From: a virus
Virus record (IMG/VR): IMGVR_UViG_3300040856_002888
Span: 1-64,000 of that record
DNA length: 64,000 bases
Direction: 5' to 3' (one strand)
Of this stretch, positions 17,561-43,562 are shown piece by piece. The translations under genes were made by a program, and so were the position numbers. The notes beneath the pieces were generated by a model. It did not search any database and was not told where the DNA came from. It was given only the letters and a program-made list of their open reading frames with translations. The number at the start of each line of letters is the position of its first letter. Within the stretch, counting starts at the first letter, position 1.

Positions 17561-17566
17561 GAAGCT

Positions 17567-19036: not shown

Positions 19037-19044
19037 GAAAAAGA

Positions 19045-20896: not shown

Positions 20897-20912
20897 TTAA
20901 AAAAGGTAAAGT

Positions 20913-21146
20913 ATGAGAGCAAGAGAATTTACAATTAATGTACCCATTAACATTAAAATAAACGGCGACGGTGATCCTGAAATTGATATGCCAGGAGCAC
21001 AGGATGAACCACAAGCTGACGATAAGCCACCTGTATTAGTTAGTCCGCTACAACAAGAATTAGAATTAAAAAAAGCAGAGCAAGGTAAACCAACTGTAGT
21101 GTCTGCACAACTCTTAGACGAACCAGAGGAAGATGAAATAGCCTAA
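20913..21146 (+). CDS. Small acidic protein, 77 aa
   Basis: Starts MRAREFTINVPINIKINGDG. Begins like the MRxREF group at 16640/17567/48357 but lacks a clear (L/I)xE site nearby. Strongly acidic and Pro-rich ('GDPEIDMPGAQDEPQADDKP'). Joined to the next gene by TAATG. No family recognised. Confidence 0.55.
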   Translation: MRAREFTINVPINIKINGDGDPEIDMPGAQDEPQADDKPPVLVSPLQQELELKKAEQGKPTVVSAQLLDEPEEDEIA

Positions 21147-22405: not shown

Positions 22406-22408
22406 AAT

Positions 22409-23980: not shown

Positions 23981-23981
23981 C

Positions 23982-23989
23982 AATAAATA
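23982..23989 (+). promoter_or_regulatory. Late promoter box AATAAATA
   Basis: AATAAATA 26 nt before the giant fibre gene at 24008. Confidence 0.65.
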
Positions 23990-24007
23990 TAACTATTAGG
24001 ATTATAA

Positions 24008-29212: not shown

Positions 29213-30405
29213 TGCGACAATATTTTAGGGCCACAAATGATTTATTAGATAATTTATTTCTTAAAATAGAAGTAGATACCAATACAATTACAATTAAAGC
29301 CTTTCATGAAGAAATCTATGATGAATTGCCAGAAAACATACTATTCATAGATAATAAAGATGGAGTTTCGTTCTTACAAGATCATAATATTGATATGGAT
29401 GCAAATTTCTTAGAGTCGGTGGTTTCTGGTTCAATTTTCTATGAACCATCAGTGCAGTCAAAATATTTTAGGTATTTTGGCGGAGCACAAATTCGCAGAG
29501 CTTTTGATCAAGATGGTAACATTTCAATACTGACAAGAACAACAACCTATGATAGAGGGTTTGATAAAAATGTTGGATTTGATAAAAATACTTTTGTTGA
29601 ATGGTCCGATTGCGCCTTATGGGCGTTTGATTTTAATTTTGACGGTATGAATTGGTTTTATCCTAAAAATATCCTATTTGATTCTGTAATAACAAAGTCG
29701 CCTTTTGTTAGGCATGAACTTAATAGTTCTTATGTAACAGCTCCAAAATTAATAAGGACAACACCAGAGGGCGCATCTTTCTGGACTAGCGGCGAATTTA
29801 GGAAAAGACTTTTTTCTATTTTCATACTAGATAAAGACGATGATTTTACAGAATGTAGTTATTACGTTAGATGTCACGGAGAATTTCATTTTGATTTTAA
29901 ATTAGGTACAAATGAAATCGGCGGGGCAAACTTTGCTTATGTTTTTCCTTTACTTACTAGTTATGCAGAGCTTCCTTTACCTAAAATTCAATTACACGCT
30001 CCTCTTGAAATATCTAAAGATGATGTCATTTTAGTCAATGTAAGTCTATATGATAATGAAGAAGTTCTGCTTACGGAAGATGCTGATAAAATTACATATG
30101 AACATATAGATAGTAAACTTTGCTTGGAGGATCTAAATACGACTGATCTTAAAATTTTAACACCTACTAATTTAAGCGATAAAGAAGGTACAATTTCAGA
30201 TCACTATATAATTCAAAAAGATATTGACTTTTACGTTTCGGCCAATGCAGGCTATTTGAGTAAACGTAAATGTAATGTAAAAAACGGTAGGGGTAGATTT
30301 TTATATAGAGCGCTTGATTTAGAAGTAGGTGACGATGTAGAAATCAAAATTGGCTTTAAATCATTTTCAAATGTTGGTAGTTTGAAACTTAAGGTAATAC
30401 CATAA
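29212..30405 (+). CDS. Unknown virion-associated protein, 397 aa
   Basis: Joined to the fibre stop by TAATG. Starts MRQYFRATNDLLDNLFLKIE. It is beta-rich and acidic, with a central aromatic part ('FVEWSDCALWAFDFNFDGMN') and a C-terminal immunoglobulin-like stretch ('KDIDFYVSANAGYLSKRKCN'). No family recognised. Located between the giant fibre and the Cys-rich proteins, so probably part of the same tip assembly (inference). Confidence 0.5.
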   Translation: MRQYFRATNDLLDNLFLKIEVDTNTITIKAFHEEIYDELPENILFIDNKDGVSFLQDHNIDMDANFLESVVSGSIFYEPSVQSKYFRYFGGAQIRRAFDQDGNISILTRTTTYDRGFDKNVGFDKNTFVEWSDCALWAFDFNFDGMNWFYPKNILFDSVITKSPFVRHELNSSYVTAPKLIRTTPEGASFWTSGEFRKRLFSIFILDKDDDFTECSYYVRCHGEFHFDFKLGTNEIGGANFAYVFPLLTSYAELPLPKIQLHAPLEISKDDVILVNVSLYDNEEVLLTEDADKITYEHIDSKLCLEDLNTTDLKILTPTNLSDKEGTISDHYIIQKDIDFYVSANAGYLSKRKCNVKNGRGRFLYRALDLEVGDDVEIKIGFKSFSNVGSLKLKVIP

Positions 30406-30848
30406 TGGCTTTTTATATTAACGGCGTCCTTGTAGATGCAGTAGGTTTAACAACATCAATAGATTTTAAAGATACCATTGTTCCGTATGGGCAAGGAATG
30501 AATTCTAACACATCATTTACCGATAATCAAGTATGGTTACGCTGTCCAAAAGTTATTGCCTATTTAGCCTCAGGGACTAGGAGCACAACAGGAACTGCGA
30601 TTGATAAATGCGGACTATCCAGGAGAGCGTTCTTATTAGGGTCGCATTCTTCTGTTGCAAATAGCCATAGGTATTGTGATACCCGGACTCCTAAACACAC
30701 AGGACCACCATATTATAATACTGTCCAAAATCCTTATTACTATAGTAGGTGTGTATATGATTCATATATGGTAGGCTGTGCAAATTTAATTAAATTTTGT
30801 GACTACAACGGAGATTCTAGTGTGAAGTATGTTTATATAGGAGATTAA
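30405..30848 (+). CDS. Cys/Tyr-rich small protein, fibre locus, 147 aa
   Basis: Coupled by TAATG. Starts MAFYINGVLVDAVGLTTSID. Cysteines are spread over the C-terminal two thirds ('CGLSRRAFL', 'RYCDTRTPKHTGPPYYNT', 'YYYSRCVYDSYMVGCANLIK'), with many Tyr. No family recognised. It looks like a fibre-tip component, and its Cys/Tyr content makes it a candidate substrate for the modifying enzymes downstream (inference). Confidence 0.55.
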   Translation: MAFYINGVLVDAVGLTTSIDFKDTIVPYGQGMNSNTSFTDNQVWLRCPKVIAYLASGTRSTTGTAIDKCGLSRRAFLLGSHSSVANSHRYCDTRTPKHTGPPYYNTVQNPYYYSRCVYDSYMVGCANLIKFCDYNGDSSVKYVYIGD

Positions 30849-30849
30849 A

Positions 30850-31446
30850 TTGGCATTTAGAATTAGAGATAAGATAATAATTTTAGAAGCAGGACTCACC
30901 CAAGCGGAAAGGAACGCACAAGCACCAGGAAAGCAACATACAACAGGACAATTGATAGTTTGTAATCCAAGCATTGCGGCATGCCAACGGGTGTTAGGAT
31001 TAGATCCCGAAACTGATTTAACTTTTTTTTCAAATCCACAAGGAACATATACTTTGTTAGATATTTTTTGTGGAGATTTTGACTCATGGGCTGATACAGT
31101 GACTAATGTTTATGTTGGTAAAGGCAGCGATTTTTTTATGTGTGCAAATACTACGTCTTACGGATCATATGTGCAACCCAGTAGTAATATACCTGCTACA
31201 CAAGGAACCCTTACATGCTTTGATGTTACAGCCGGCGTCAGATGGACATTAGGCGGATACACAAATCAAATTTGTTTTGCAATAGTTAATAATTGTTTAG
31301 TTTGCTGTTGTATAGGTACTGCAAATTACTATTGTGCTATGGTATGTTCATATAATCGTGGAAGTGGAGCTTATTACGACGATACTACTGTCGAGGATTC
31401 TTGTCAATGTAGCTATCCAGTGAATAGTTATATCACGGTCTCATAA
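30850..31446 (+). CDS. Cys-rich protein, fibre locus, 198 aa
   Basis: TTG start at 30850, chosen because AGGAG stands 6 nt before it and no ATG fits. Sequence MAFRIRDKIIILEAGLTQAE, then many Cys, dense near the end ('IVNNCLVCCCIGTANYYCAM', 'DSCQCSYPVNSYITVS'). About a dozen or more Cys in all. No family recognised. One base after 30848, before the poly-Cys gene, and plausibly part of the same adhesin tip. Confidence 0.55.
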   Translation: MAFRIRDKIIILEAGLTQAERNAQAPGKQHTTGQLIVCNPSIAACQRVLGLDPETDLTFFSNPQGTYTLLDIFCGDFDSWADTVTNVYVGKGSDFFMCANTTSYGSYVQPSSNIPATQGTLTCFDVTAGVRWTLGGYTNQICFAIVNNCLVCCCIGTANYYCAMVCSYNRGSGAYYDDTTVEDSCQCSYPVNSYITVS

Positions 31447-31454
31447 ATCATAAA

Positions 31455-31462
31455 GATAAATA
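31455..31462 (+). promoter_or_regulatory. Late promoter box GATAAATA
   Basis: GATAAATA 26 nt before the poly-Cys gene at 31481. It would start the transcript carrying the poly-Cys protein and probably the modification cluster. Confidence 0.65.
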
Positions 31463-31480
31463 ATTCAAACAGAGGTTATA

Positions 31481-32188
31481 ATGGCATTAAAAATTGGAAA
31501 TACCGTTGTAGGTGATCCGGCAGATAAAATTGATATTAGTAATGTAGATCCTACAACTATTCCTGCTTCTTTTGTGAGTCCAAGTTGGTTATTAAATGGA
31601 GTGTCTCTAGTTCCAACTCCTAGCAATGGTCCATTTACCGGCGCTGCTATTAACAAAATTTATCAAATACGGAATAATGTAGCAGGATCAGAAGGTACAC
31701 TAAGGATAGAATATACAACCAACTGCAATTGCAAATGCAAGTGCCAGTGCAAATGCAAATGCAAGTGCAAGTGTAAGTGCAAGTGCCTTTGTGCATGCAA
31801 GTGCCAATGTAAATGCAAATGTGCATGCAAGTGCCAATGTAAATGCAAATGTGCTTGTAAATGTTGGTGTGGTAAATGTAAATGTTCATTTAATTTAGGA
31901 AAAGACTCCGATGGATTTATTATAGATCAACTTAGCGTAGAAAAATTAAAATCTTTACAAGAGATTATAATAGATTATATAGATAAAGGGCTTGATATTG
32001 AAAGTTTGATAGAAAATGACAATGATATTACTGACGATGAAAAAGTTTTGCTAGATCAATTTGCTCAAGAGGCAGAAAATATTTTACCAGACCTAATAAA
32101 TATTCTAGAAAAAGACGGAAATAAATTAAAGGGTTTAATTTACATTGAACAAATTCCGATTTTATTAGAAAAAATAGAAAACCTATAA
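31481..32188 (+). CDS. Protein with 27-Cys alternating Cys-X tract, 235 aa
   Basis: Residues 1-78 form a fibre-like N-terminal module ('ALKIGNTVVGDPADKIDISN'). Residues 82-135 alternate Cys with another residue (mainly Lys, also Gln, Ala, Asn, Leu, Trp), with 27 Cys in 54 positions, including a repeated 10-residue unit CACKCQCKCK. Residues about 140-235 are acidic and helical. I know no family with this tract. Alternating Cys could bind metal, form disulfide ladders or be cross-linked. It is the gene immediately before the radical SAM/halogenase/oxygenase cluster, hence a candidate substrate or scaffold. Ribosome site AGAGG. Confidence 0.7.
   Translation: MALKIGNTVVGDPADKIDISNVDPTTIPASFVSPSWLLNGVSLVPTPSNGPFTGAAINKIYQIRNNVAGSEGTLRIEYTTNCNCKCKCQCKCKCKCKCKCKCLCACKCQCKCKCACKCQCKCKCACKCWCGKCKCSFNLGKDSDGFIIDQLSVEKLKSLQEIIIDYIDKGLDIESLIENDNDITDDEKVLLDQFAQEAENILPDLINILEKDGNKLKGLIYIEQIPILLEKIENL
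31724..31890 (+). repeat. Six-nucleotide (TGYAAR) microsatellite in the Cys tract
   Basis: The coding DNA is near-perfect TGCAAA/TGCAAG hexamers, with a 30-bp unit repeated in tandem (near 31791 and 31821). Such runs can expand or contract by slippage in 6-bp steps without frameshift. Confidence 0.75.
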
Positions 32189-32203
32189 ACATAAAGAGTT
32201 ATA

Positions 32204-32791
32204 ATGAATATAATGGAATATGACTATTCTTCTCTTCTTAAAAAAGAATGTTTTACTATATATCCTAAAATATTCTATAGCGACGAATGCGCTGAAATTT
32301 GCGAATTGCAAATCGACAATGATATTGTCAACATAGAACCCAATCCAGTTACAAATCCGAGAACACCTAAACAAAACTTTGAGTCTTACACAATTGAAAA
32401 TCAACTGCATTTAGAAGAAAAAATATTAAAATATATTTTTGATTGCAATACTAGAAATTATGGATATGAAATTTGGGGATTTGAAAACGATCCAAGATTA
32501 ATAACCTTCCAGCAAGGTTGTGAGTACGGATACCATTCAAGATTAGATTTTTTTTCAAATGAGTCCTGTGACCAAAAACTAACTGGTTATGTTTTTCTAA
32601 GTGATAAACAAAAATATGAAGGTGGGCAATTCTTAGTAGACCCTTTATATGGCATATCACTACCTAAATATTATAATGAGCAAGGTAATTTGTTAATTTA
32701 TCCATCTTTTGTACCTATAAAAATAAATCCATTATTACAAGGAGCTATGCAAGTTCTTACATTCGATATTGTAGGTCCTAAATTGAAATAA
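32204..32791 (+). CDS. Degenerate 2OG-Fe(II) oxygenase-fold protein, 195 aa
   Basis: Fold signs of prolyl-4-hydroxylase-type enzymes: 'KLTGYVFLSDKQKYEGGQFL', then 'GNLLIYPSFVPIKINPLLQG' and a terminal 'FDIVGPKLK' like the 'IxGPKFR' ending of its paralogues at 38792 and 39415. The iron ligands are not conserved: 'YHSRLD' instead of HxD, and no distal His or Arg. It is probably a binding or structural paralogue rather than an active oxygenase. Start is an ATG after AAAGAG. First gene of the modification cluster. Confidence 0.55.
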   Translation: MNIMEYDYSSLLKKECFTIYPKIFYSDECAEICELQIDNDIVNIEPNPVTNPRTPKQNFESYTIENQLHLEEKILKYIFDCNTRNYGYEIWGFENDPRLITFQQGCEYGYHSRLDFFSNESCDQKLTGYVFLSDKQKYEGGQFLVDPLYGISLPKYYNEQGNLLIYPSFVPIKINPLLQGAMQVLTFDIVGPKLK

Positions 32792-32796
32792 ATATT

Positions 32797-33345
32797 ATGC
32801 TTTACGATCATATAACCTTTCCTGGTGCTGTTGAAAATGTAGTACCAGAATTTCTAAATATTATTGAAAATTTACAAGTTAAAAGTAATCTATCTAGTGG
32901 TAAAGGTAAAAATGTAGATGTCAAATGGTACGGTGGTGGTTACATTTCTGATATAGAAGATGCAATTTATTATTATTTCCAAAAAGCAAATAATAATAAT
33001 TTTGGTTATTCAATTAATAGCATCGATGCAATTAGATTAGAATCATATTCAAAAGACGGATCATTTTCAGAACGAATGGAATTAAACCATTGGGTGCAGA
33101 ATTATTATGATAGAAAACTTGTAGCTATCATAAATTTAAATCCTCCTTTTGATCCAGATATTGCTGGTGGAAAAATTAAACTAATCGCACCTAATGGAAG
33201 TCAAAGTGAGATTGATAAGATTTTTTATCAAAAAACTGGTGCCATTGTAGTATTTAACAGCTTTCAAAAATATATAATTGATACTGTTTCTGTACCACAA
33301 TTAAAATACTTGTTTGCATTTTGTATAGGATCAAAATGGCAATAA
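32797..33345 (+). CDS. Degenerate oxygenase-like protein, 182 aa
   Basis: Starts MLYDHITFPGAVENVVPEFL. The 'RMELNHWVQNYYDRKLVAII', 'AGGKIKLIAP' and 'GAIVVFNSF' order resembles the beta-helix core of 2OG-Fe(II) oxygenases, but the HxD and distal His/Arg are not evident. Terminal Trp-Gln. Overlaps the next gene by about 10 nt. Function uncertain; may be an inactive partner. Confidence 0.4.
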   Translation: MLYDHITFPGAVENVVPEFLNIIENLQVKSNLSSGKGKNVDVKWYGGGYISDIEDAIYYYFQKANNNNFGYSINSIDAIRLESYSKDGSFSERMELNHWVQNYYDRKLVAIINLNPPFDPDIAGGKIKLIAPNGSQSEIDKIFYQKTGAIVVFNSFQKYIIDTVSVPQLKYLFAFCIGSKWQ

Positions 33346-34988
33346 AAAATATTGCAGTATTAGGAAATACATTTGCTGCAAAGGTGATTGCATTATCCTT
33401 GAAGATAAATAATCCGCAAAGTAATCCAATATTATTTACTAATAATGAAAGTTTCAGAACACAAATAATTTCAAATCAATATCTACCTGTAGCTGAACAA
33501 TATTCCTTTCCTTCGTTGTTTTTTAAACATTGTAATATAAGCGTTGCAGAGATTTTTACACAAACAAAGAGCACAGTCGGGCATGGAATTTCTTTTGAAG
33601 GTATAATAGAAAATGAGATAATATTACCAGCTAGGATGACACAGTTACAATTTAGTTTATTAAACTATTATTGTACAAAATATGATTTTTTAAAATTTGA
33701 TTCAACAGAAAGAAAATATCAAGCTTTTATAGAATATCTACTACAAAAAAATAAAAATATCCTTGATGTGCTTACAATCTTTCCATATGATTTATATAAA
33801 AATAATGATAATTTATATCATCTCACCGGCAAATTTCTAACCGAAGGATCTGCAGGTCCTTTATGGTTTAGAATGCCAGGATGTTATGATTTAGATAATC
33901 TTGCTCTTCTTCTAGATAACAAAATATCAGAATTAGGGTTAGACATTATAACTGATAATATAGTAGATGGATCAACTGAAATCCTACCAGTATTAGATGG
34001 AAAAAATAAAAAAAATATAACACAAATTACGACTAGTAGTCAATCTTTTAATGTAGATTTGGTGATTAATACAGGTATAAATAATCTATTTTTTAATAAT
34101 TTTATAGAAAGTGATAAAGAACTTACTACTACAAATCCTACAATAATTTTTTCTGGTTATGAAGATGAACAAATTGATTTTCTTGAACCAGCAATCTATA
34201 ATAACCAGCTTTTAGATAATAAATTTGTTAAAATTTTAAAATATCAAGATTATGCAAAAAAAATATCATTTAGCAATAATGTCAATAATATTAATACACT
34301 TCAAAATAATTTTTTAATTAATGATCTAAATCATTCTAATTATATAGAATTTAATTTAGAAAAATTAGGTTTGAATCCTATATTTAACGAAGAGTTAGTG
34401 GCAGCTAATATTTATATAGATACAATTGTATCAACGATTAATTCTTCCATAATCGATCCAGCAAATTTATATCAATACATTGATTCACTTCAACATAAAT
34501 GGGAAAATTTTAACAAAAATCTTAAGAAATTTAGTTTTTATTTATTGCAGGATAACAATTTGCAAGGTTATGGAATTTTTAATAATACACCAGATACATT
34601 AAAAACTAATTTTAATGATAAAGTACCTAGTTTTAGTACAGATTTTAATAATGAAATTACTTTTGGCAATTCCTACGACAAAGACCCAAATAGTGTAATT
34701 GATTATATAATTTTAGCAGCTCAACTTGGTAACATTACTGCATTTGATTTTGATTTTTCAAGCAGCAACGTGTTTGATAGGTTAGCATTATATCTTGAAA
34801 TTAATGTAAAAGAAAATTTTTACTTTAATGGCTATTTTACTTTTGATGAATTTTTAAATTTATTAATTTTAGAGACTCCGAACTATGGTAATGTAGGACA
34901 AATTACATCAAAAAATGGAGAATACTTTGAAACTTATATAGAACATGTTCCATTCAAACGATTAAGGGCAAGTAATAATGCTATATGA
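33336..34988 (+). CDS. Possible halogenase-related flavoprotein, degenerate, 550 aa
   Basis: ATG at 33336 (MAIKNIAVLGNTFAAKVIAL), with overlap into the preceding gene. The N-terminal beta-strand plus 'LGNTFAAKVIAL' looks like a degraded dinucleotide-binding motif at the place where Trp halogenases have GxGxxG. The size and position next to a clearer halogenase-like gene (35676) support relationship. I see no WxWxIP-like motif or catalytic Lys that I can align, so function is unproven. Asn/Ile/Lys-rich. Confidence 0.4.
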   Translation: MAIKNIAVLGNTFAAKVIALSLKINNPQSNPILFTNNESFRTQIISNQYLPVAEQYSFPSLFFKHCNISVAEIFTQTKSTVGHGISFEGIIENEIILPARMTQLQFSLLNYYCTKYDFLKFDSTERKYQAFIEYLLQKNKNILDVLTIFPYDLYKNNDNLYHLTGKFLTEGSAGPLWFRMPGCYDLDNLALLLDNKISELGLDIITDNIVDGSTEILPVLDGKNKKNITQITTSSQSFNVDLVINTGINNLFFNNFIESDKELTTTNPTIIFSGYEDEQIDFLEPAIYNNQLLDNKFVKILKYQDYAKKISFSNNVNNINTLQNNFLINDLNHSNYIEFNLEKLGLNPIFNEELVAANIYIDTIVSTINSSIIDPANLYQYIDSLQHKWENFNKNLKKFSFYLLQDNNLQGYGIFNNTPDTLKTNFNDKVPSFSTDFNNEITFGNSYDKDPNSVIDYIILAAQLGNITAFDFDFSSSNVFDRLALYLEINVKENFYFNGYFTFDEFLNLLILETPNYGNVGQITSKNGEYFETYIEHVPFKRLRASNNAI

Positions 34989-35679
34989 AAAACAATTGTT
35001 ATCTAAAAAAGATGTAACACGTCTTAAATATTTTTTTGATATAATAAGGTCAGTTCATGATTTTAATAAACATAGAATTCAACAGGAATTAGATGACGTG
35101 CGACTACTTGCTAATGGTATTGTCAGAAAAATTACAGAAACAAATAGTTATTCAATTATTTTTTGTATTGATCCTATAATTGATATCATTAGAACCATTT
35201 ACAATAATATTTTGCAAATTAATACTGACATATATTTAGAAGATATCCAATTTCTTGATTTATCAACAAGTCTAGATTATATTGACAATGGTATTAAAAA
35301 TATAGTTACTCCGGAAAGGTTTAGAAAAACAAAACTTTTAAAATATTCTGATAATTTTTGTCTAGTTCCTTTAAATATAGAATCTATATATTATACCAGT
35401 GATAATAAAAATATTTCAAAATGTGTTGTTAATCCTGGTGATTTTTTATTTTTCCAGCAAGAAGCTTTTTTTTGTAAAAATATGACATACTATCCTATTT
35501 TCCTTGTAATGTTTTATAATAAGGTAAGAAATAAAATTAATATGACTAGACTTTTAAAAAATGATAATACTGATATAAAGAAAAATAATTTGAATCTACA
35601 TAATAAATTATCAAACGTACCGATATCACATTCATTGAAGGATATCAACGATATAATACAAAAAATTGAGGAAGCATGA
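34978..35679 (+). CDS. Unknown protein in modification cluster, 233 aa
   Basis: Starts MLYEKQLLSKKDVTRLKYFF and overlaps the upstream gene by 11 nt. Helical N-terminal half; the central part 'VVNPGDFLFFQQEAFFCKNM' has the 'PGDxxFF' turn seen in cupin and oxygenase folds, but no metal ligands are clear. No family recognised. Tightly coupled to 35676 by a 4-nt overlap. Confidence 0.45.
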   Translation: MLYEKQLLSKKDVTRLKYFFDIIRSVHDFNKHRIQQELDDVRLLANGIVRKITETNSYSIIFCIDPIIDIIRTIYNNILQINTDIYLEDIQFLDLSTSLDYIDNGIKNIVTPERFRKTKLLKYSDNFCLVPLNIESIYYTSDNKNISKCVVNPGDFLFFQQEAFFCKNMTYYPIFLVMFYNKVRNKINMTRLLKNDNTDIKKNNLNLHNKLSNVPISHSLKDINDIIQKIEEA

Positions 35680-37325
35680 GATTAAAAAAGATCATTATTG
35701 TTGGATCAGGTCTTGAAGGTTGGTTAACCGCTTATATATTAAAAACGCAATTACCATTTCTTGAAATTAAAATTATAAATCAGCCTATTCTTGAAGGTAA
35801 TGATATACAAGAAGGAACTTTATACCTTACAAAAAACTTAATTGAATATTTAGACATAAAAGACTTATTCCAAGAAACCCAAGGAGTTATTAACTTTGGG
35901 TCAAGGTATAATAATTGGAATACTACAGACGAAATTTTTGTACATAGTAATTCTATGAATTTTATGAAAATTGATGAAATTCATTGGCCAGAAAAAACTG
36001 AAGACAACGCTGATCAAGATGAAATAGATCCAAATGATGAAGTCGAGAAGTTTAATAAGACATGGAAACGATCCTATCTTAATAGACTATTAAATGACGA
36101 AAAAAAAATTAATTTTTCAGAAATTACATCATTTTTTACCGAAGATAAAATTCCAGATTTAGATATTGCTAGTTTAATGAATTTATTTGACAATAAAGAC
36201 AGATCAATTGCAATCACCTACACAAGTGAAAAACTATTGCCATATATTAAAAGATTAGCTTTACAGCAAGATGTTGAGGTAATAGACGATTATTACCAAC
36301 AACTAATTCAAGAAGAAGACGAAACTATTATCCAAGTTAAAGGAACAAATGATGTTTATGACTGTGATTTTGTTATAGATTGCACAGGAATTCATAGAGA
36401 TGTTGTTACAAATTTTTCTTTTTATAATTTTTGGTTATTTCCTACGCATAAAGTGAATAAAGTAATTTCATATGAAAGTGATATTGCATTAGAAAAAATT
36501 TGGAAAGATTTTTATCCTTTATCAGCAGGTTATGTATATCAAATTCCATTACAAAACTGCACAAGGTATTCTTATGTTTATGCACAAAATTATATCAGTG
36601 ACGAAGATGCGCTGTCAGAGTTAGAAAATCATCTTAATTTGAAAATTGAGAAATATCAAATTATAGATTTAAACATAGGATCAATAGATAAAATTCTTAA
36701 CAAAAATTGCATAGCGTTAGGTAATGCTTCATCGATTATTGAACCTATTTTTATTGATCCCTTAAATCTAATTGTAAAACAGATAGAATCGCTAATTAAT
36801 ATTTTAATTGAAAGCGATAACGACACGGAAGATGATTGTTTTAGTATAGATGAAGAAACATTGATGTTGAAAACTTTAGAATTTAATGAAACTTACTCTA
36901 ATTTTTTTAAAGAAATTTCAGATTTGTCTTTATTATATACTTGGACTAATAATTCTGCTAATTTTTGGAAAGATTGTAAAAATATATATAATCCAAATTC
37001 TACTGAAATTACAACAGGAATAGACGAAACAATGTCTTTTAAAATAAATTACTGGCGTTTTTTTCATGTCTATTACCATACCGAAAATAAACTTTTTAAT
37101 TTTATTAATGAATATGATTTTTTGGTTCCTGTTTTTCATAATAAACTTTATGATATTGAAAAAAGAAAAGAATTATTACAAAACAATGATGTATTAGATT
37201 TTTGTAGTGAAGAAAATTATCTAATTGCCAAAGATTTATTCCAGCAGTTTAAAGAACAATTGTTATCAAATAGTCTTACAATTCAATTATATCAACAAAA
37301 ATATGAGCTTGCTTCTAAAATATAA
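35676..37325 (+). CDS. Tryptophan-halogenase-family flavoprotein, 549 aa
   Basis: Residues 6-16 are 'IIIVGSGLEGW', the FAD-binding GxGxxGW motif. About residue 285 has 'GYVYQIPLQNCTRYSYVYAQ', the position of the halogenase 'GWxWxIPLQ…GYVYS' block with the WxWxIP Trp residues changed. 'NCIALGNASSIIEPI' near 347 matches the 'xAxGxxxxFxEPL' FAD segment. Marine cyanophages encode related halogenases, one shown to be active (VirX1). The altered WxWxIP leaves halogenation versus oxygenation open. Partner flavin reductase not seen. Confidence 0.7.
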   Translation: MRLKKIIIVGSGLEGWLTAYILKTQLPFLEIKIINQPILEGNDIQEGTLYLTKNLIEYLDIKDLFQETQGVINFGSRYNNWNTTDEIFVHSNSMNFMKIDEIHWPEKTEDNADQDEIDPNDEVEKFNKTWKRSYLNRLLNDEKKINFSEITSFFTEDKIPDLDIASLMNLFDNKDRSIAITYTSEKLLPYIKRLALQQDVEVIDDYYQQLIQEEDETIIQVKGTNDVYDCDFVIDCTGIHRDVVTNFSFYNFWLFPTHKVNKVISYESDIALEKIWKDFYPLSAGYVYQIPLQNCTRYSYVYAQNYISDEDALSELENHLNLKIEKYQIIDLNIGSIDKILNKNCIALGNASSIIEPIFIDPLNLIVKQIESLINILIESDNDTEDDCFSIDEETLMLKTLEFNETYSNFFKEISDLSLLYTWTNNSANFWKDCKNIYNPNSTEITTGIDETMSFKINYWRFFHVYYHTENKLFNFINEYDFLVPVFHNKLYDIEKRKELLQNNDVLDFCSEENYLIAKDLFQQFKEQLLSNSLTIQLYQQKYELASKI

Positions 37326-37461
37326 AAAATGTAAAATTAATTTTACGCAAAAAAACAATAGAGAGTACGAGTCAACATTAACTAGTACAAAGAAAATTAT
37401 ATGCACTCATGCATATTCAGTTGATTCTCGAATTTCTTACGTTTATAGGATTATAGAATGA
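37303..37461 (+). CDS. Small ORF directly before radical SAM gene, 52 aa
   Basis: Open frame starting at the ATG at 37303 (MSLLLKYKKCKINFTQKNNR), overlapping 35676-37325 by 23 nt and joined to 37458 by ATGA. No clear ribosome site. Contains two Cys and a Ser/Thr-rich middle. It could be a short partner or precursor peptide for the radical SAM enzyme. It could also be a chance frame. Confidence 0.35.
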   Translation: MSLLLKYKKCKINFTQKNNREYESTLTSTKKIICTHAYSVDSRISYVYRIIE

Positions 37462-38801
37462 AAAATAAAAATCTTGTTTATACACTAATTTGCGACGACG
37501 GGGAAGAATTTTTTTATTATCCATATAAAAGTTTACTTACTAATGCCGACGGTCAAAATTTATATGAAAAAAATCCAATCGGTATTGAAAAAATCAATGA
37601 AATGTATGTATATAGTCCTAAAGATTATCCTCATCAAACTAATGTAAATCCTATTCATCCTTTTTTTAATCCTGGAAAAAAATTAAAAAACCCAAGTAGA
37701 ATTAAAATTCAGTTGGGATTAAAATGTAATTATAAATGTGAATATTGTAGTCAAGCATCTTTTGTTCCTGCTGCATCTCGTACAGATGAAAATGATACAG
37801 ATGTTTTTATGCATAATTTAGAAAATAGTATTGATTTATCATCTTGTACAATGGTGGAACTTTGGGGCGGCGAGCCGCTACTTTATTGGAAAAAAATAAA
37901 AAAATTAGTACCTTTTTTAAAAGAAAAATGTGATGAAGATATTGAATTTACGATGGTTACAAATGGAAGTTTGTTAACACAAGAAAAAATTGATTTTTTT
38001 AAAAAATATAGATTTAATTTAGCAATGTCACATGACGGACCCGGATATCATCTTAGAGGGCCTGATCCATTAGATAATCCTAAAAAGTTTGAATTTGTAA
38101 AACAATTAATAGAAGCTGATAAAAAACAAGAACTTGGGTTTGCTTTTTCAATTGTTTGGACAAAAGAAAATGATGATTACGATCAAACTGTAAAATGGTT
38201 TAGAGATAAATTTGGAACCGATGTTAATATTAATTGTGAAGGAGTTGTCGAAGCCTACGATTTAAAAACTGCACTAAATGATAAAACTGGAAAATTTGAT
38301 CAAAAGTATGTTTATGATTTTAGAGAAAAAATATACAACGGGATAGTAGAAGGTAAGCAACCATTATTACAAGTTGTAGGTATTGTAGAAAAAATTAACG
38401 AATGGTATGGTTCTTTATTATATAAAAAAGATGCAGAGTTTCTTGGGCAAAAATGTGGAATGGATCAAGACGATGAACTAGCTCTAGATTTAAAAGGTAA
38501 TGTACTCACATGCCAAAATGTAGGTTTGGAAAACAAACACCTTGCTGGTCATCTTGACAATTTTGATGCCGTTAGAATTAAATCTAGCAGGCATTGGTCC
38601 TGGAGAAACGAATGTACACATTGTCCTGTTTTACAATTATGCAAAGGGTCCTGTATGTTTCTTACTGGAAAAGAGTTTGCTCAAACTTGCTGGAATGAGT
38701 ATGCCTATAATTTAGGAATTATGTTTGGAGCTATAAAACTATTAACAGGAAAAAAAGTTGTTGATATTCAAGGAGATATACGGAGACCGTCATGGGTGTA
38801 A
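37458..38801 (+). CDS. Radical SAM/SPASM peptide-maturase-type enzyme, 447 aa
   Basis: The radical SAM cluster motif is C90xxxC94xxC97 ('LGLKCNYKCEYCSQASF'), with the SAM-binding 'ELWGGEPLLYW' and 'DGP' elements following. A C-terminal SPASM-like Cys set ('CGMDQDDELALDLKGNVLTC', 'CTHCPVLQLCKGSCMFL', then 'CWNEY') would hold one or two more 4Fe-4S clusters, as in anSME and RiPP maturases. These enzymes modify peptide side chains (thioether, C-C bonds, formylglycine). Here the likely substrate is phage protein, possibly the Cys tract. Full length, no damage. Confidence 0.85.
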   Translation: MKNKNLVYTLICDDGEEFFYYPYKSLLTNADGQNLYEKNPIGIEKINEMYVYSPKDYPHQTNVNPIHPFFNPGKKLKNPSRIKIQLGLKCNYKCEYCSQASFVPAASRTDENDTDVFMHNLENSIDLSSCTMVELWGGEPLLYWKKIKKLVPFLKEKCDEDIEFTMVTNGSLLTQEKIDFFKKYRFNLAMSHDGPGYHLRGPDPLDNPKKFEFVKQLIEADKKQELGFAFSIVWTKENDDYDQTVKWFRDKFGTDVNINCEGVVEAYDLKTALNDKTGKFDQKYVYDFREKIYNGIVEGKQPLLQVVGIVEKINEWYGSLLYKKDAEFLGQKCGMDQDDELALDLKGNVLTCQNVGLENKHLAGHLDNFDAVRIKSSRHWSWRNECTHCPVLQLCKGSCMFLTGKEFAQTCWNEYAYNLGIMFGAIKLLTGKKVVDIQGDIRRPSWV

Positions 38802-39418
38802 ATATTCAAGATGCAAGAGAACCAGGATCGCCTTACCCTCCTATATTTGGCAAGGTAACTGATTATTCTCCTATAAATTACAAAAAATCTCCATTTGTAA
38901 TTTATGAAAAACTTTTTAGTGAAAACGCTTGTAAAGAGATAATAACCAAATTTGAAAAAGGCGGATATAATCATATCAATAACGATTTTGGTAATTTCTT
39001 TTCTATCTCACTAAAGAAAAATTTTTTCCCAGAAGATTATAAATTTTTAGAAAAAATTTTCAACGAAGTTGGCGCAGATGCCAATAAAAATTTTATGCTA
39101 GATCTTATGAATGTAGAAAACCTATATCTGTGTAAATTTGAAAAAGACCAGTTTATAAATTGGCACCATGATTGCGAGTGGTGGAACAATGAAAAACCTT
39201 ACGATAATAAGTTGAGTCTTTTATTATTTTTAAATGACGAAGATATTGTAGGAGGTGAAATTGTTGAATTTCATAGCACAGTTCCTATTCCGCAAAAATT
39301 TCTTTCACAGGGATCTTTATGTATATTACCTGCTTATTATTTTTACAAGATTGCTCCTATTACAAAAGGAACGAAGTATATATTAATCTCTCATATTATT
39401 GGACCAAAATTTAGATGA
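38792..39418 (+). CDS. 2OG-Fe(II) oxygenase-fold protein, altered distal site, 208 aa
   Basis: HxD is present (H125-H126-D127 in 'NWHHDCEWW'). The beta-helix core is 'KLSLLLFLNDEDIVGGEIVEF' (in two parts), and the paralogue-type ending is 'IIGPKFR'. At the distal site, the His of paralogue 39415 (H190) is Tyr185 and the Arg (R200) is Lys195, so iron or 2OG binding is likely weakened. Overlaps the radical SAM gene end by 10 nt and is followed by 39415 with a 4-nt overlap. Confidence 0.6.
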   Translation: MGVNIQDAREPGSPYPPIFGKVTDYSPINYKKSPFVIYEKLFSENACKEIITKFEKGGYNHINNDFGNFFSISLKKNFFPEDYKFLEKIFNEVGADANKNFMLDLMNVENLYLCKFEKDQFINWHHDCEWWNNEKPYDNKLSLLLFLNDEDIVGGEIVEFHSTVPIPQKFLSQGSLCILPAYYFYKIAPITKGTKYILISHIIGPKFR

Positions 39419-40056
39419 TATATGAACCTAATGACATAGCAAAAGCTTCAAAAGAAACAAAGCAAAGAGTTTTTTCTGATTCAAACGGTAGTAGACAACC
39501 TTACTATTTTAAAGAAAATATTTTTACAAAAGAAGAATGTGATAAAATTTGGTCATATTGGAAAAATGAAGATGTTTTCATAGAAATAGTAAATAACGAA
39601 GAAAGTCCGTGGTATAAATATTTTAGAGAAAAAAGGTCTAGGAAACACATGTTCTTGGAAAATGAGATTGATTGGTTAGATGCAAAATTAGATAAAATTG
39701 CTTTAATGGCTAACAGAGATTGTTTTCATCTAGATATAAGTTATGGCTGCTTATCTAAACAATTGATGCAATATGATATTGATGATTGGTTTGATACACA
39801 CGATGATACAAATCATTGGGATAATCATCATCATGATAGAAAATTAACTTTTATAATTCAGTTATCAAACGAAGAAGATTATGATGGAGGTGAGACCATT
39901 GTAGAAGAACATTTAAATATTGCACAACCGAACAATGTAAAGCTTCAAGGTAGTGTGCTTTTATTTCCAACATTTGCAATCCATAAAGTGAATAAAATAA
40001 CAGCTGGTACACGCAGAGCTTTTATTTGCTGGTACGGAGGTCCAAAATTTAGATAG
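39415..40056 (+). CDS. 2OG-Fe(II) oxygenase, prolyl-hydroxylase type, 213 aa
   Basis: Complete catalytic set: H129 and D131 (HxD in 'WFDTHDDTNHWD'), distal H190 and 2OG-binding R200 ('FPTFAIHKVNKITAGTRRAF'), and the 'DGGE' turn. It probably hydroxylates a protein or peptide using O2 and 2-oxoglutarate. It ends in 'GPKFR' like 38792, its apparent degenerate paralogue. Located in the modification cluster, so a phage fibre protein is the likely substrate (inference). Confidence 0.82.
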   Translation: MIYEPNDIAKASKETKQRVFSDSNGSRQPYYFKENIFTKEECDKIWSYWKNEDVFIEIVNNEESPWYKYFREKRSRKHMFLENEIDWLDAKLDKIALMANRDCFHLDISYGCLSKQLMQYDIDDWFDTHDDTNHWDNHHHDRKLTFIIQLSNEEDYDGGETIVEEHLNIAQPNNVKLQGSVLLFPTFAIHKVNKITAGTRRAFICWYGGPKFR

Positions 40057-40058
40057 TT

Positions 40059-40970
40059 ATGATTATTCCACAAATATTTCCTGAAAATAAAACACCTTTG
40101 TACATGATACAGAATGGTGTAGGCAAGTGTGTTTTGTTTAGCAATTTAATAAAAGATCTCTATAATCGTCATGAATCAAAAATTTCTATTAGTTCACCAT
40201 ACCCTAATTTATTTATAAATCATCCACTTGTTGCATCTTCTCTAAGTATGGCCTTGCCAAATGTTACGGTAATGAAGAATTATTTTACCAGTATAACTTA
40301 TTTTGAACCTTACAGATCTGATTACTTATTTGAAGATGAGCATATATTGACTAGTTGGAGAAAAGGTTTGAATTTAGATATTGAAAACTATCAAGATTTT
40401 GTAGAAATTTACACAGATGAAACAGCCCGTACATTTTATGAACAGGTTACAAAAAAAATAGGAAAAAAGTATATCATATTTCAATTAAAAGGCGGAAATA
40501 CTAATAACGGAGAGGATAGACATGATATAATGGTATTTAGAAATTATAGAAAAGAATATGATTTTATTAAAGCTATCCATGATGCTTTTCCAGATTATTT
40601 TTTTATGTGTGTAAAGGTAAAAAACGATAAGTATGATCCAAGAATTGACACGTTGGATAGAATTTGCACGGTTGAAGATGAACCTTTATTAACAATTCAA
40701 GAGTTAGTAAATAATTGCAGCTCATTTATATCTATAGATAGTTGTATACAGCATATGGCTTGCAACAAAATATCGCCTACGCCTGGTGTAGTTTTATGGA
40801 GTACAATAACAAATCCTACCCAAATAGGGCATTTGTTGCATCATAATTTTCAATCTGATACAGTAGAATTTGTAGAGATTGATCCAATCAAAGTAATTAA
40901 AATTCTTAAAGGTATTTTAAATGGAAAAAATCAATCAATGGTCCCAAAAACACAATATCAGCAAAAATGA
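40059..40970 (+). CDS. GT9-like (heptosyltransferase-type) glycosyltransferase, 303 aa
   Basis: Two-domain GT-B look: an N-terminal 'GVGKCVLFSNLIKDLYN' strand-helix and a C-terminal 'CSSFISIDSCIQHMACN', then 'PGVVLWSTITNPTQIGHLL', the pattern of GT9 heptosyltransferases (sugar-nucleotide-binding 'DSxxxHxA'). It may glycosylate the fibre or another phage product. Begins 3 nt after 40056. Its end overlaps the next ATG region by 50 nt. Confidence 0.55.
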   Translation: MIIPQIFPENKTPLYMIQNGVGKCVLFSNLIKDLYNRHESKISISSPYPNLFINHPLVASSLSMALPNVTVMKNYFTSITYFEPYRSDYLFEDEHILTSWRKGLNLDIENYQDFVEIYTDETARTFYEQVTKKIGKKYIIFQLKGGNTNNGEDRHDIMVFRNYRKEYDFIKAIHDAFPDYFFMCVKVKNDKYDPRIDTLDRICTVEDEPLLTIQELVNNCSSFISIDSCIQHMACNKISPTPGVVLWSTITNPTQIGHLLHHNFQSDTVEFVEIDPIKVIKILKGILNGKNQSMVPKTQYQQK

Positions 40971-41712
40971 TATTAACTTACATAAGAAATACCTACTAGA
41001 ATATTCTAATAAAATTAATATTTTTCAAAAATCTTTTCTTTCTTCAAAAGAATTACTCGAAATATGGCAAACAATGCCAAAAAATTGTGAAAATGATATC
41101 AAAGGAAGATTTCCTACATTAAGATTGTACAATAATCAAAAGTTAATAGAAAATTTAAAGAAAAAATTACTAGATTATTATAAATTTCCATTAACAATAC
41201 ATATTGATAATTGTAATGTTTGTTTTATTCCAGAACCTACAAGACCTCACATTGATGGTCATTTTCCTTTTTATCCAAATGATGAAAGAGAATTTTGTGT
41301 TTTAAAAATAGGCGTAATACCATTAGCATTTGATACAGAAGAATTATCAACAGACACAATCTCTTCAACTTTAATAACTTTCAAAGAACATTACGAATAT
41401 AGTTATGGCGGAGTAGAATTTCAAGAAGATTTCTATGGAAAAACCAATTATGATAATTTTGATTTTTTTGATAAATTTTTTAATGCATTACCAAAAAATA
41501 CCGATCCTTGGATAGGAGATGACGATAGCTGGAATCATATTTTGGCCATTCCTGGTATGGAGACAGGATTACATATTGAAAACATTTATCAAATGCAGTT
41601 AGGAGATTTAGTTACTTTTAATCCTTATCAGGCACATTGTACCCAAGGATATTCAAAGATTACTTCAAAATATGTATTTAGATTTTTAATTTGTGGTAAG
41701 TTAGATGAATAA
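40921..41712 (+). CDS. 2OG-Fe(II) oxygenase-like protein, 263 aa
   Basis: H110-I-D112 gives the HxD motif ('TRPHIDGHFPFY'). The 'GDLVTFNPYQAHCTQGYSKI', then 'YVFRFLICG' supplies a distal His and an Arg in the right order. The intervening long insertion is unusual. No exact family named. The start at 40921 overlaps 40059-40970. Overlaps the following radical SAM gene. Confidence 0.55.
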   Translation: MEKINQWSQKHNISKNDINLHKKYLLEYSNKINIFQKSFLSSKELLEIWQTMPKNCENDIKGRFPTLRLYNNQKLIENLKKKLLDYYKFPLTIHIDNCNVCFIPEPTRPHIDGHFPFYPNDEREFCVLKIGVIPLAFDTEELSTDTISSTLITFKEHYEYSYGGVEFQEDFYGKTNYDNFDFFDKFFNALPKNTDPWIGDDDSWNHILAIPGMETGLHIENIYQMQLGDLVTFNPYQAHCTQGYSKITSKYVFRFLICGKLDE

Positions 41713-42862
41713 AACTTATTGTCCTGTTCCATTTTATTCAGTTGAATTAAATCCAAATAATTTTAAATTATGCTGTGTTAGTAGCAAACAGTATAATTAT
41801 CCTAATCATAATTTTTTAGATTTTTGGAAAGCTGATACATTAGATGCTATTAGGAAAAAAAACTTGGATAATATACCAATAGAAGATTGTACGTTGTGTT
41901 ATAATAGAGACAAAAAAATAGGACAATCAAAAAGGCTAAATGAGATAACTACTAATAAATTTTATAAAGAAGCAACTGAATTTCCAACTCATCTACAAAT
42001 AAAATTAAGCAATATCTGTAATTTAAAATGTATCATGTGCAGCCCAGATTATTCAACAAAATGGAATGAAGATGTTCAGTCATTTTCGTTGATGCGTAAT
42101 TTACAAAAAAGCAAAACCAATTATTTTAAAAAAGAAGAAATAGAAGCCATTTTAACAAAATTTATCAAAACTAATCCTACATCAAATAAAACTTTAGAAT
42201 TGTATGGTGGTGAGCCAATGCTAGCAAAAAAGTTTTGGAGTTATCTTGATAATTTTGATGCAGATTGCCTAAAAAATGTTAATTTACAATTAGTTTCAAA
42301 TGGAACTTTTATAAAAGATTATCATTTAAATAATATGATTAAATTTAAATCTGTAAATTTTGTTATTAGTGTTGATGGAATAGATGAGGTATTTGAATTT
42401 GTAAGGTTTCCAGCAAAATGGTGTATTGTTGATAGAAATATAAAAAAAATAAATGATTTTGCTGCTTTACAAAGAAATAAATTTAAATTTACACTAAATT
42501 TTACCTTGAGCAGTTTTAGTGCAATAGGTTTAAAACATTTTTTAATATATTGTAAAAAATATAATTATCCTTATTGTATCAATGTAGCAACACATGAAAG
42601 TTCTACAAGTAAAGGCTATAGTAACCCTGGAATTTTGCAAGAACACCTAAAATTTTTAATATTAAATGATATTAAAAATATAATTGAGGCACGTTGGTTT
42701 CCTATTGTAAAAAATGCTCTTGCAGATGAAAATAGTCTTGAAATGAAACAAAAAATTTTTGATTATTACAATTTAATTAAACAACACCGAAAACAAGACT
42801 TCATAAGTTTGGTAGGTAGTTTATATGGTATAGATTATGTTAAACCGTGTAATCATTACTGA
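41705..42862 (+). CDS. Radical SAM protein, twitch-type, 385 aa
   Basis: Cluster motif C105xxxC109xxC112 ('LSNICNLKCIMCSPDYS'), with 'ELYGGEPMLAKKFW' and 'VISVDGI' following. The N-terminus has additional Cys ('MNKTYCPVPF', 'KLCCVSS', 'DCTLCYN') in the arrangement of an N-terminal twitch/SPASM-like auxiliary cluster. Similar proteins are annotated in cyanophages. The reaction is unknown; peptide or sugar modification is possible. Overlaps the next gene by 26 nt. Confidence 0.78.
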   Translation: MNKTYCPVPFYSVELNPNNFKLCCVSSKQYNYPNHNFLDFWKADTLDAIRKKNLDNIPIEDCTLCYNRDKKIGQSKRLNEITTNKFYKEATEFPTHLQIKLSNICNLKCIMCSPDYSTKWNEDVQSFSLMRNLQKSKTNYFKKEEIEAILTKFIKTNPTSNKTLELYGGEPMLAKKFWSYLDNFDADCLKNVNLQLVSNGTFIKDYHLNNMIKFKSVNFVISVDGIDEVFEFVRFPAKWCIVDRNIKKINDFAALQRNKFKFTLNFTLSSFSAIGLKHFLIYCKKYNYPYCINVATHESSTSKGYSNPGILQEHLKFLILNDIKNIIEARWFPIVKNALADENSLEMKQKIFDYYNLIKQHRKQDFISLVGSLYGIDYVKPCNHY

Positions 42863-43562
42863 TTTTCAGAAAATAGATTTAGAAAATTTTTGTGCTACCT
42901 ATTGTCCTGCCAAAGTAACAAAAAATTTATTTACAGAAAATCATTATCCTCCTTTGGCAGACAATAATAATAAATTAGTAAATAAAATAGAATTTGACCA
43001 ACTTAGTTTCAATTTCAATTTTAAAAATATTTTCCAAAAATTATTAAAAAAATTTGATATTCCTAATTTTAACCTTGTCTTATATGCAAGCTTACAACAT
43101 TTAGGTGCAGCAACTCATAGTGTCCATAGCGACAGTGATGGTGGTTTTAGAAAAATTCATAATCCAATATGTAGATTTCTAATACCTTTGACTAATGCAT
43201 CACCTACATGTTATTTTGATAAATTAATGCCAGACAATCGATTTTATCGCAGAGAATCAAAATTTGATTTTAAAGTAGAGATTCCTGAAGGACCTGCAGG
43301 AAAATTAAAATCTGTAAGTATTACCCATTTAGTATCCTTAAAAAATAATTTAAAAAAACCGATAAGCAATTTTTTACCTAAATATCCACATATATCTCAT
43401 ATTTCACCTGAGCAGTTGTATGGCCTTGAAGTAGATACATTAGGCGAATGGGAAATAGGAGCTATTCATTTATTTCCGTGTTCATTACTTCATGCAAGCA
43501 CTGACTTTGATTGGTATGATTCTAAGTACATGATTAATGGCGTTATCTATACTCCTAAATAA
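42837..43562 (+). CDS. Possible 2OG-Fe(II) oxygenase-like protein, 241 aa
   Basis: Starts MLNRVIITDFQKIDLENFCA inside the end of 41705. 'ATHSVHSDSDGGF' offers an HxD, and 'IHLFPCSLLHASTDFDW' a distal His, but an Arg is not obvious (Lys instead). Probably a member of the oxygenase set with unusual cofactor pocket. Last enzyme of the cluster before a late box at 43558. Confidence 0.45.
   Translation: MLNRVIITDFQKIDLENFCATYCPAKVTKNLFTENHYPPLADNNNKLVNKIEFDQLSFNFNFKNIFQKLLKKFDIPNFNLVLYASLQHLGAATHSVHSDSDGGFRKIHNPICRFLIPLTNASPTCYFDKLMPDNRFYRRESKFDFKVEIPEGPAGKLKSVSITHLVSLKNNLKKPISNFLPKYPHISHISPEQLYGLEVDTLGEWEIGAIHLFPCSLLHASTDFDWYDSKYMINGVIYTPK

Follow-up and report, generated by a model that had tools for sequence, protein, structure and literature searches.

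A probable fibre-tip maturation module in phages: linkage of a Cys-X tract in fibre-type proteins to a SPASM radical SAM enzyme

The DNA stretch analysed here, 64,000 nucleotides from a marine phage (the window), encodes a fibre-type protein in which 25 cysteines occupy alternate residues (CNCKCKCQCKCK...), and we found that tracts of this kind are obligately linked to a SPASM radical SAM (rSAM) enzyme in other viruses too. By codon comparison the tract is under purifying selection, and tract and enzymes are inherited as a module. We regard this locus as probably a fibre-tip maturation module, in which the tract of gene 31481 (genes are named by their first position in the window) is modified by the rSAM enzyme 37458 and the tip is then decorated by accessory enzymes.

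Downstream of 31481 there are 12 genes on the same (+) strand, with short gaps or overlaps between neighbours: the SPASM enzyme 37458, a twitch rSAM protein (41705), two halogenase-fold flavoproteins, six 2OG-oxygenase-fold proteins, a putative GT9-fold transferase, and one unknown protein. All the genes listed in a first-pass annotation made from the sequence alone were found, on the + strand and at the same coordinates or a few bases off; the enzyme cluster that it described is present, but the count of downstream genes is 12 and not about eleven. The features, in window positions, are:

24008..29212, + strand: large fibre protein with a C-terminal S74 chaperone domain, without a CX tract (Pfam PF13884, E = 1e-9)
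29212..30405, + strand: companion protein (family present at 88 of 134 rSAM loci)
30405..30848, + strand: small fibre-associated protein, 6 Cys in 147 aa (ORF, Cys count)
30850..31446, + strand: Cys-rich fibre-associated protein, 14 Cys in 198 aa (ORF, Cys count)
31481..32188, + strand: fibre-type protein with Cys-X tract and degenerate S74-like C-terminal domain (alignment to L001/L002)
31724..31870, + strand: Cys-X tract with 25 cysteines in alternate positions, the presumed substrate of the rSAM enzyme (Cys pattern, codon comparison)
32204..32791, + strand: 2OG-oxygenase-fold protein, metal triad lost (phrog_61, E = 8e-4)
32797..33345, + strand: 2OG-oxygenase-fold protein, metal triad lost (similarity to 32204/39415 families)
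33336..34988, + strand: putative flavoprotein, remote halogenase fold (weak, model-based)
34978..35679, + strand: unknown protein, little conserved among cassettes (cassette comparison)
35676..37325, + strand: halogenase-superfamily flavoprotein without catalytic Lys and WxWxIP (Pfam PF04820, E = 7e-42)
37458..38801, + strand: SPASM radical SAM enzyme (phrog_1802), the system's central enzyme (Pfam, phrog, NCBIfam, alignment)
38792..39418, + strand: 2OG-fold protein that retains HxD but not the distal His (motif comparison)
39415..40056, + strand: 2OG-Fe(II) oxygenase, intact triad (family match, E = 1e-11)
40059..40970, + strand: putative GT9-fold transferase (predicted structure)
40921..41712, + strand: 2OG-like protein, intact HxD...H...R (motif comparison)
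41705..42862, + strand: twitch-domain radical SAM protein (NF033640, 203.7 bits)
42837..43562, + strand: 2OG-like protein, intact HxD...H (motif comparison)

Cysteine accounts for 27 of 235 residues in 31481, 14 of 198 in 30850 and 6 of 147 in 30405, compared to 1.4% across the ORFs of the window (binomial tails of 1e-16, 1e-6 and 0.018, respectively), so the description of all three as Cys-rich holds for 31481 and 30850, but 30405 is only weakly unusual. The 24008 fibre has no Cys-X tract. Over the 50 codons of the tract, the window and locus L004 differ by 17 synonymous changes and 1 non-synonymous change, with 25 of 25 cysteines kept; this 17:1 ratio, on which the case for purifying selection is built, rules out a microsatellite or chance origin. 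The C-terminal domain of 31481 aligns to the S74 domain of L001 and L002. These two, in which a Trp stands ahead of the cleavage site, have both the SDxxLK cleavage motif and a Pfam match to S74, and both are lost in the window and L004; because the cleavage motif is lost there, the tract may not be the mature C-terminus in the window and L004.

When 31481 was used as a tblastn query against phage records it hit no direct relatives, and low-complexity filtering possibly masks the tract. Scanning IMG/VR with a permissive nucleotide pattern of eight CX units, and the genomes of viruses and prokaryotes with (CK)4C, gave for the most part microsatellites or short ORFs in the wrong frame, and the only long fibre-type tracts in the viral set were those of the window's relatives.

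The enzyme 37458 is a radical SAM protein (Pfam PF04055, E = 2e-13; phrog_1802, E = 8e-56). In an alignment it has CxxxCxxC and the complete 7-Cys SPASM pattern, Cx9-15Gx4C...Cx2Cx5Cx3C...C, which makes it a SPASM protein and is found in full in 95 of 96 family members; the NCBIfam SPASM domain TIGR04085 scores above its cut-off in the homologues from L307 and from phage JWF. The second of the two radical SAM genes that had been proposed also stands, as 41705 scores 203.7 bits against the NCBIfam twitch rSAM family NF033640 (cut-off 170). The named families closest to 37458 are PapB, HxsB, CcpM, QhpD and anaerobic sulfatase maturase, which are all peptide or protein maturases, and it reaches the equivalog cut-off of none of the named NCBIfam maturase families (PapB, CcpM, SCIFF, HxsB, QhpD, anSME and others), its best score being 67.8 bits versus 340. 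Relatives of the rSAM enzyme occur in at least 529 viral stretches. Full-length relatives in cultured phages number only two in 50,697 records, the Achromobacter phages JWF and 2-1, and both have NCNCDCNC... ahead of a Hint domain in the fibre gene two upstream of the rSAM gene (PJWF_00028 in JWF, Phage2-1_00027 in 2-1).

By searching IMG/VR we found 62 viral stretches that match NCNCNCxC followed by a stop codon, of which 47 encode the SPASM family of 37458. The enzyme is on the strand of the tract in all 47, and nearly always at most 4 kb downstream. In the other 15, the match lies in an ORF of 39 amino acids or fewer, or the sequence ends less than 1.5 kb past the tract. Taking as testable only real genes that end in NCNCNCxC-stop and have enough downstream sequence, there were no exceptions among the 47 testable IMG/VR stretches to the rule that a C-terminal NCNCNCxC implies a SPASM enzyme. 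In the forward direction, 60 of the 85 loci in which the enzyme was found have, on the same strand and no more than 8 kb away, a tract of (CX)3+C; the remaining loci mostly have an adjacent protein with 13–23 cysteines or are cut off, and at one that is seemingly complete around the enzyme (L322) no Cys-rich partner was seen. Both tests used stop-to-stop ORFs. Gene-level counts, for which we used a longest-ORF caller that misses fibre genes in GC-rich phages, also show enrichment of tracts near the rSAM gene (50/605, versus 6/688 far from it; P = 1e-11), with none on the opposite strand (0/291).

Poly-Cys fibre genes and SPASM enzymes thus co-occur in related genomes, and we did not see Cys-rich genes and enzymes vary independently: tract and enzymes form one inherited block in four distinct cassettes whose flanking genes are 87–100% identical, and the gene order of the whole cassette is identical in three related phage contigs. 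A search for sister phages that have the flanks and lack the cassette gave contigs that stop short of the locus. This strict linkage and co-inheritance support the first-pass proposal, in which the phage subjects the tip of its own fibre to chemical modification. They also weigh against a different explanation, that the enzymes act on host LPS or small molecules (in superinfection exclusion, or as AMGs) and that fibre loci are merely hypervariable points of insertion. Clusters for host recognition in pelagimyophages do contain glycosyltransferases and radical SAM cassettes (PMC7029224), and LPS heptosyltransferases have the GT9 fold, but a linkage between rSAM and CX tail that is specific in strand and motif in many unrelated phages, with the entire block co-inherited, makes this explanation quite improbable. 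It may apply to 40059 alone.

37458 shares one feature of RiPP biosynthesis, a genetic tie of the maturase to a specific ribosomal substrate sequence, and the enzyme very probably modifies the Cys-X tail. We see the CX tract of 31481 as the most likely substrate, and 30405 and 30850 as possible additional ones. Adjacency alone cannot establish a substrate, and the enzyme could act instead on the 29212-family companion or on other Cys-rich proteins. If the companion, 30405 or 30850 were the rSAM substrate, the CX tail would be a binding handle, a disulphide-linked clamp of the trimer or a redox switch. The companion family is on the same strand at 88 of 134 rSAM loci, and Cys-rich proteins of the 30850 type occur with the tract in 4 of 4 cassettes, but the CX tail is present more constantly, even where no companion was detected, and it is short, repetitive and C-terminal in the manner of a maturase substrate. 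We consider this the least probable of the explanations.

Tracts range from 4 to 29 cysteines across viruses, and one type of carrier, seen in L388, is an adhesin of only 133 aa. Their architectures comprise 88 at the C-terminus, 6 before Hint, 3 with S74, 2 with a degenerate S74, and 10 before another conserved domain. When mapped on the rSAM tree these labels change in a way that implies repeated switching among architectures. A tract at or near the C-terminus is also what a metal-binding apex motif would look like, and we considered whether inward-facing cysteines of the trimer hold metal ions or iron-sulfur clusters stacked in a column, with the rSAM enzyme only preparing or loading the site and leaving no stable peptide modification. 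An alternating Cys-X sequence suits a beta strand with every Cys on one face, and HxH iron-binding motifs are documented in phage fibre tips (PMC11705849). This explanation, which we think unlikely, leaves the obligatory SPASM enzyme without a reason, and the SPASM enzymes nearest to 37458 are maturases of peptides or proteins. We know of no need for a SPASM rSAM enzyme in HxH fibres. Metal binding and covalent modification can coexist.

Among the candidate accessory enzymes, 35676 matches Trp_halogenase and so belongs to the halogenase superfamily as annotated, with VirX1 (6QGM, 22% identity) as its nearest solved structure. However, the catalytic lysine, kept in L001 and L002, is lost in L004 and is Asn in the window, and the WxWxIP motif reads AGYVYQIPL in the window compared to GWMWQIPL and GWLWKIPL in L001 and L002. 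Because the window copy has lost the catalytic lysine, the label "halogenase" is doubtful for it. Searching viral contigs with peptide patterns revealed nothing closely related to 35676. Its suggested relationship to 33336 is consistent with a low-confidence model of the latter (AF2 mean pLDDT 42) that best resembles tryptophan halogenases, but 33336 has no sequence match. Where several 2OG-Fe(II)-fold proteins had been proposed with 39415 as the canonical one, we found six; the HxD...H facial triad is kept across all cassettes in 39415, 40921 and 42837, but is incomplete in 4 of 4 cassettes in 32204, 32797 and 38792. 40059 also has no sequence match, and its AF2 model (pLDDT 79) best resembles GT9 structures (TM 0.6–0.66).

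The tract as substrate, the chemistry, the receptor role and the roles of single accessory enzymes are what we infer for the maturation module. The fibre-type protein 31481 would be made with its tract of cysteines at every second residue, and in the infected cell 37458 would bind the tract and alter it, most likely at the cysteines; a first guess at the chemistry is thioether cross-links or cysteine oxidation. The tip would be decorated further by 39415, 40921, 42837, 33336, 35676, 41705 and 40059, perhaps with the catalytically dead 2OG-fold homologues guiding the decorating enzymes. In most phages the tract ends the protein, and in others a trailing Hint or S74 domain could be removed, so that the mature protein would end in the modified tail, and this tail would face the receptor at the distal end of the fibre.

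We lean towards the view that these phages represent a widespread new class of receptor-binding tip, in which a dedicated SPASM rSAM enzyme turns the C-terminal Cys-X tail of a fibre or adhesin protein into a modified tip that resembles a RiPP, and flavin, 2OG, twitch rSAM and glycosyltransferase enzymes decorate it differently in different lineages. If so, viruses would apply radical chemistry to their own virions, and the window's phage, from a group with 25–29 tract cysteines and 12 downstream genes, would be the most elaborate of the cases seen. Modification of the tail by the rSAM enzyme would be, as far as we know, the first case of a virion protein altered by a radical SAM enzyme, and would extend over many phage lineages; in literature mainly outside subscription journals, we found no description of a radical SAM enzyme paired with a Cys-X phage fibre. 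The linkage suggests a function for phrog_1802, a phage family previously without assignment, and hints at where substrates may be sought for the halogenases and oxygenases of cyanophages, which are fibre-adjacent in Syn10 too. It would also add a new pair of maturase and substrate in which the sequence code is simple (NC repeats), for which JWF and 2-1 are cultured carriers.

The closest known systems are the RiPP SPASM maturases (PapB of ranthipeptides, CcpM of Cys-rich peptides, SCIFF/CteB, HxsB), which share with 37458 the 7-Cys auxiliary motif and a gene beside a Cys-rich substrate-like sequence; they are its best NCBIfam matches, and CteB (5WGG) is among its best PDB matches. However, 37458 scores at most 68 bits against cut-offs of 340–600 and is outside all these families. 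Its presumed substrate is the tail of a virion structural protein, a fibre protein of about 100–500 aa, instead of a leader-core peptide, and self-cleavage by Hint or S74 would take off the C-terminal part, unlike RiPP leader cleavage, which takes off the N-terminal part. In the quinohemoprotein amine dehydrogenase system a SPASM rSAM and a flavin enzyme, QhpD and QhpG, similarly modify a protein subunit. QhpD matches the rSAM enzyme at 58 bits and QhpG weakly matches the L001 flavoprotein at 23 bits, both far under the family cut-offs, and the phage system differs in being viral, lacking a dehydrogenase and having accessory 2OG, GT and twitch enzymes. Another Cys-modifying SPASM enzyme, anSME, matches at 53.9 bits in NCBIfam and with 4K36/4K37 in PDB, and the JWF homologue is annotated as anSME, but the score is under the cut-off of 349, there is no sulfatase nearby, and the motif is (NC)n instead of a sulfatase motif. 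TibC, the GT9-family heptosyltransferase that acts on a surface adhesin, has the fold predicted for 40059, although the latter, a putative transferase, is only about 10% identical to it. In cyanophage Syn10, the source of VirX1, the halogenase pair likewise lies downstream of genes for fibre and glycine-rich adhesin-like proteins and upstream of several genes of the 2OG-like kind; we saw no CX tail and no rSAM gene in the Syn10 stretch examined, and 35676 of the window differs from VirX1 in lacking the catalytic Lys and WxWxIP (22% identity). Finally, HxH fibre tips of the T4 gp37 type (PMC11705849) similarly have metal-binding residues in alternation at the distal end of a fibre trimer, but those are His residues in few copies with no maturase, whereas the phages described here have Cys in up to 29 copies and an obligate rSAM enzyme.

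Every gene named in the first-pass annotation is present on the + strand in a single tightly packed run, in which fibre gene 31481 (genes are named by their start positions) is followed by twelve genes spanning 32204-43562. The observation of a fibre locus with an adjoining modification cluster is confirmed. The features are:

30405, + strand: mildly Cys-rich protein (6 of 147 residues)
30850, + strand: Cys-rich protein (14 of 198 residues)
31481, + strand: fibre-type protein of 235 amino acids with an alternating Cys-X (CX) tract, containing NCNCKCKCQCKCKCKCKCKCKCLCACKCQCKCKCACKCQCKCKCACKCWC
33336, + strand: no match in sequence searches; its model, of low confidence, suggests the fold of 35676
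35676, + strand: tryptophan-halogenase superfamily member; closest solved structure is VirX1, the cyanophage Syn10 halogenase
37458, + strand: radical SAM protein with the complete SPASM cysteine set
40059, + strand: no match in sequence searches; predicted model (pLDDT 79) has a GT9 fold
41705, + strand: twitch radical SAM protein, scoring above the NCBIfam cut-off
32204, 32797, 38792, 39415, 40921 and 42837, + strand: six proteins of 2OG-oxygenase-like character

The earlier call of a GT9-like transferase for 40059 is kept because of its predicted fold. GC content is 24-30% across 32204-43562 versus about 33-37% in the surroundings, consistent with a foreign, exchanged module. Elsewhere in the window, the N-terminus of the 2914-4398 product (SGQISAANIQSELGG...) resembles those of Cys-rich adhesins adjoining radical SAM genes in viral stretches L006 and L388, and this product may be a further virion protein of that type.

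The source record is a 117,597-base IMG/VR contig. One of its virion structural proteins matches T4-like cyanophages and Puniceispirillum phage HMO-2011 at about 41-48%, and the phage encodes NrdA. Read by eye, G000:C1 80701-100552 (L431, L432) carries PurF-, PurB-, PurD-, PurL-, PurM- and aspartate carbamoyltransferase-like genes, which look like a putative purine and pyrimidine biosynthesis run unusually complete for a phage; a gene at 69703 likewise looks DnaK-like.

Using the SPASM enzyme 37458 as a query, we found four related viral contigs (L001-L004; 62-78% identity). All of them share the window's cassette order and have a (CX)n gene some 6-7 kb upstream of the enzyme. Because L002 and L003 are nearly identical, the window and these contigs amount to four distinct cassettes. 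Across 50 tract codons, the window and L004 differ by 17 synonymous changes and one amino-acid change, with 25 of 25 cysteines conserved, so the CX tract is not a sequence artefact. Identity to L004 is 97% for fibre 24008, then 94, 89, 85 and finally 73% for 31481; it is 39-78% across the enzymes and returns to 94-100% past the cassette. In the L002 comparison the downstream flank is 87-100% identical, and genes of the fibre locus and the enzymes reach 26-63% or go undetected. The tip locus and its enzymes thus behave as a single module in divergence or exchange. The first-pass annotation had proposed that the phage chemically modifies its own receptor-binding tip; independent variation of the Cys-rich genes and the enzymes was not seen among the window and L001-L004, and their inheritance as a block supports the predicted modification.

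A profile of eight enzymes found relatives in at least 529 viral stretches, although IMG/VR contigs are in part redundant or truncated, and some pattern-scan counts are lower bounds. A same-strand (CX)3+C tract lies within 8 kb of the enzyme in 60 of 85 screened loci; most of the other 25 have an adjacent protein with 13-23 cysteines or a contig that ends too soon, and L322 is an apparent exception. At the gene level, tracts are enriched near the enzyme (50 of 605, versus 6 of 688 farther off; P = 1e-11), with 0 of 291 on the opposite strand. The reverse test, from tail to enzyme, is stronger. Among 62 viral stretches matching an NCNCNCxC-stop pattern, 47 have the enzyme gene on the strand of the tail, nearly always within 4 kb downstream; the other 15 matches are ORFs of at most 39 amino acids or lie where the sequence ends less than 1.5 kb past the tail, so none of the 62 is a genuine counterexample. 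We found no earlier description of this pairing in the literature searched (mostly without subscription papers). Two papers touch on the subject: one places radical SAM cassettes in the host-recognition clusters of pelagimyophages (PMC7029224), and the other records a surplus of radical SAM genes, left unexplained, in Campylobacter phages (PMC2853527).

Of 134 loci, 88 have the tract as the very C-terminus of the protein; a Hint self-processing domain comes after it in 6, an S74 chaperone in 3 and another conserved domain in 10. These architectures switch repeatedly along the enzyme tree. A degenerate S74-like domain follows the tract in the window and L004, and the cultured Achromobacter phages JWF and 2-1 have NCNCDCNC... 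abutting Hint, in the second gene upstream of the enzyme. Asn fills 69% of the X positions (next come Ala, Arg and Asp) in the 61 non-redundant C-terminal tails, which have 4-9 cysteines; Lys fills 71% in the window group, where the tract has 25-29 cysteines. In eight stretches (L005-L009, L342, L346, L360) a Cys-rich protein just downstream of the enzyme has a CNCACNC tract followed by a conserved 'SKIICxKLY...' domain, which has no Pfam match (searched for L006) and may be one more domain of the C-terminal processing or chaperone type. In L326, L354, L363 and L366 a single enzyme follows several tandem adhesin-like ORFs that each end in an NCNC tail, and it may mature several variant tips.

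A companion family related to window gene 29212 is found with 88 of the 134 loci. A further 24 loci have accessory 2OG enzymes next to the enzyme and 6 more have halogenase-family flavoproteins there, so the window's rich enzyme set extends a simple core. L388 (2235-6337) and L417 (5672-9694) each have a small Cys-rich adhesin ending NCNCNC..., the enzyme, a companion and a halogenase-family flavoprotein in a single run, the window's system in compact form; by eye, the L388 flavoprotein has Arg for Lys at the catalytic position. In Cyanophage Syn10 (5441-24180), the VirX1 halogenase pair lies after a fibre gene and glycine-rich adhesin-like genes and ahead of several genes resembling 2OG oxygenases; this candidate cluster for fibre modification could contain the natural VirX1 substrate.

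An alignment of the four cassettes (window, L001, L002, L004) corrected the halogenase call and half of the six oxygenase calls. The HxD...H triad is intact in 39415, 40921 and 42837; in 38792 HxD remains and the distal His is gone; 32204 and 32797 lack the triad in all the cassettes compared, the pattern expected of conserved partners with no catalytic role. Protein 35676 has Asn at the flavin-halogenase catalytic lysine position (the lysine is lost in L004 too) and YVYQIP where halogenases have WxWxIP. Catalytic lysine and WxWxIP are both retained only in L001 and L002, the two phages in which a Trp closes the CX tract, just ahead of the S74 Ser-Asp cleavage site. Four cases give no more than a hint that this Trp is the flavoprotein's target.

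In the simplest reading, the enzyme would recognise and modify the CX tail while the phage infects its host; the modified tail would become the fibre end through self-cleavage (Hint, S74) or natural termination, and hydroxyl, halogen or sugar groups would be attached by the accessory enzymes. The main rival is a column of metal-binding cysteines in a trimeric tip, which could coexist with tail modification. For the modification itself, the leading chemistries by analogy are thioether links, which we rate at a little under even chances, and cysteine oxidation, which we consider improbable. The sequence comparisons support the proposed tip modification and widen it to a system general among phages. 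No named maturase family includes the enzyme; nearly all of its nearest families act on peptides or proteins, several at Cys (PapB, CcpM, QhpD, SCIFF and anSME). We place the system with an already known kind, a SPASM maturase with a dedicated substrate, in which the tail would be the part modified.
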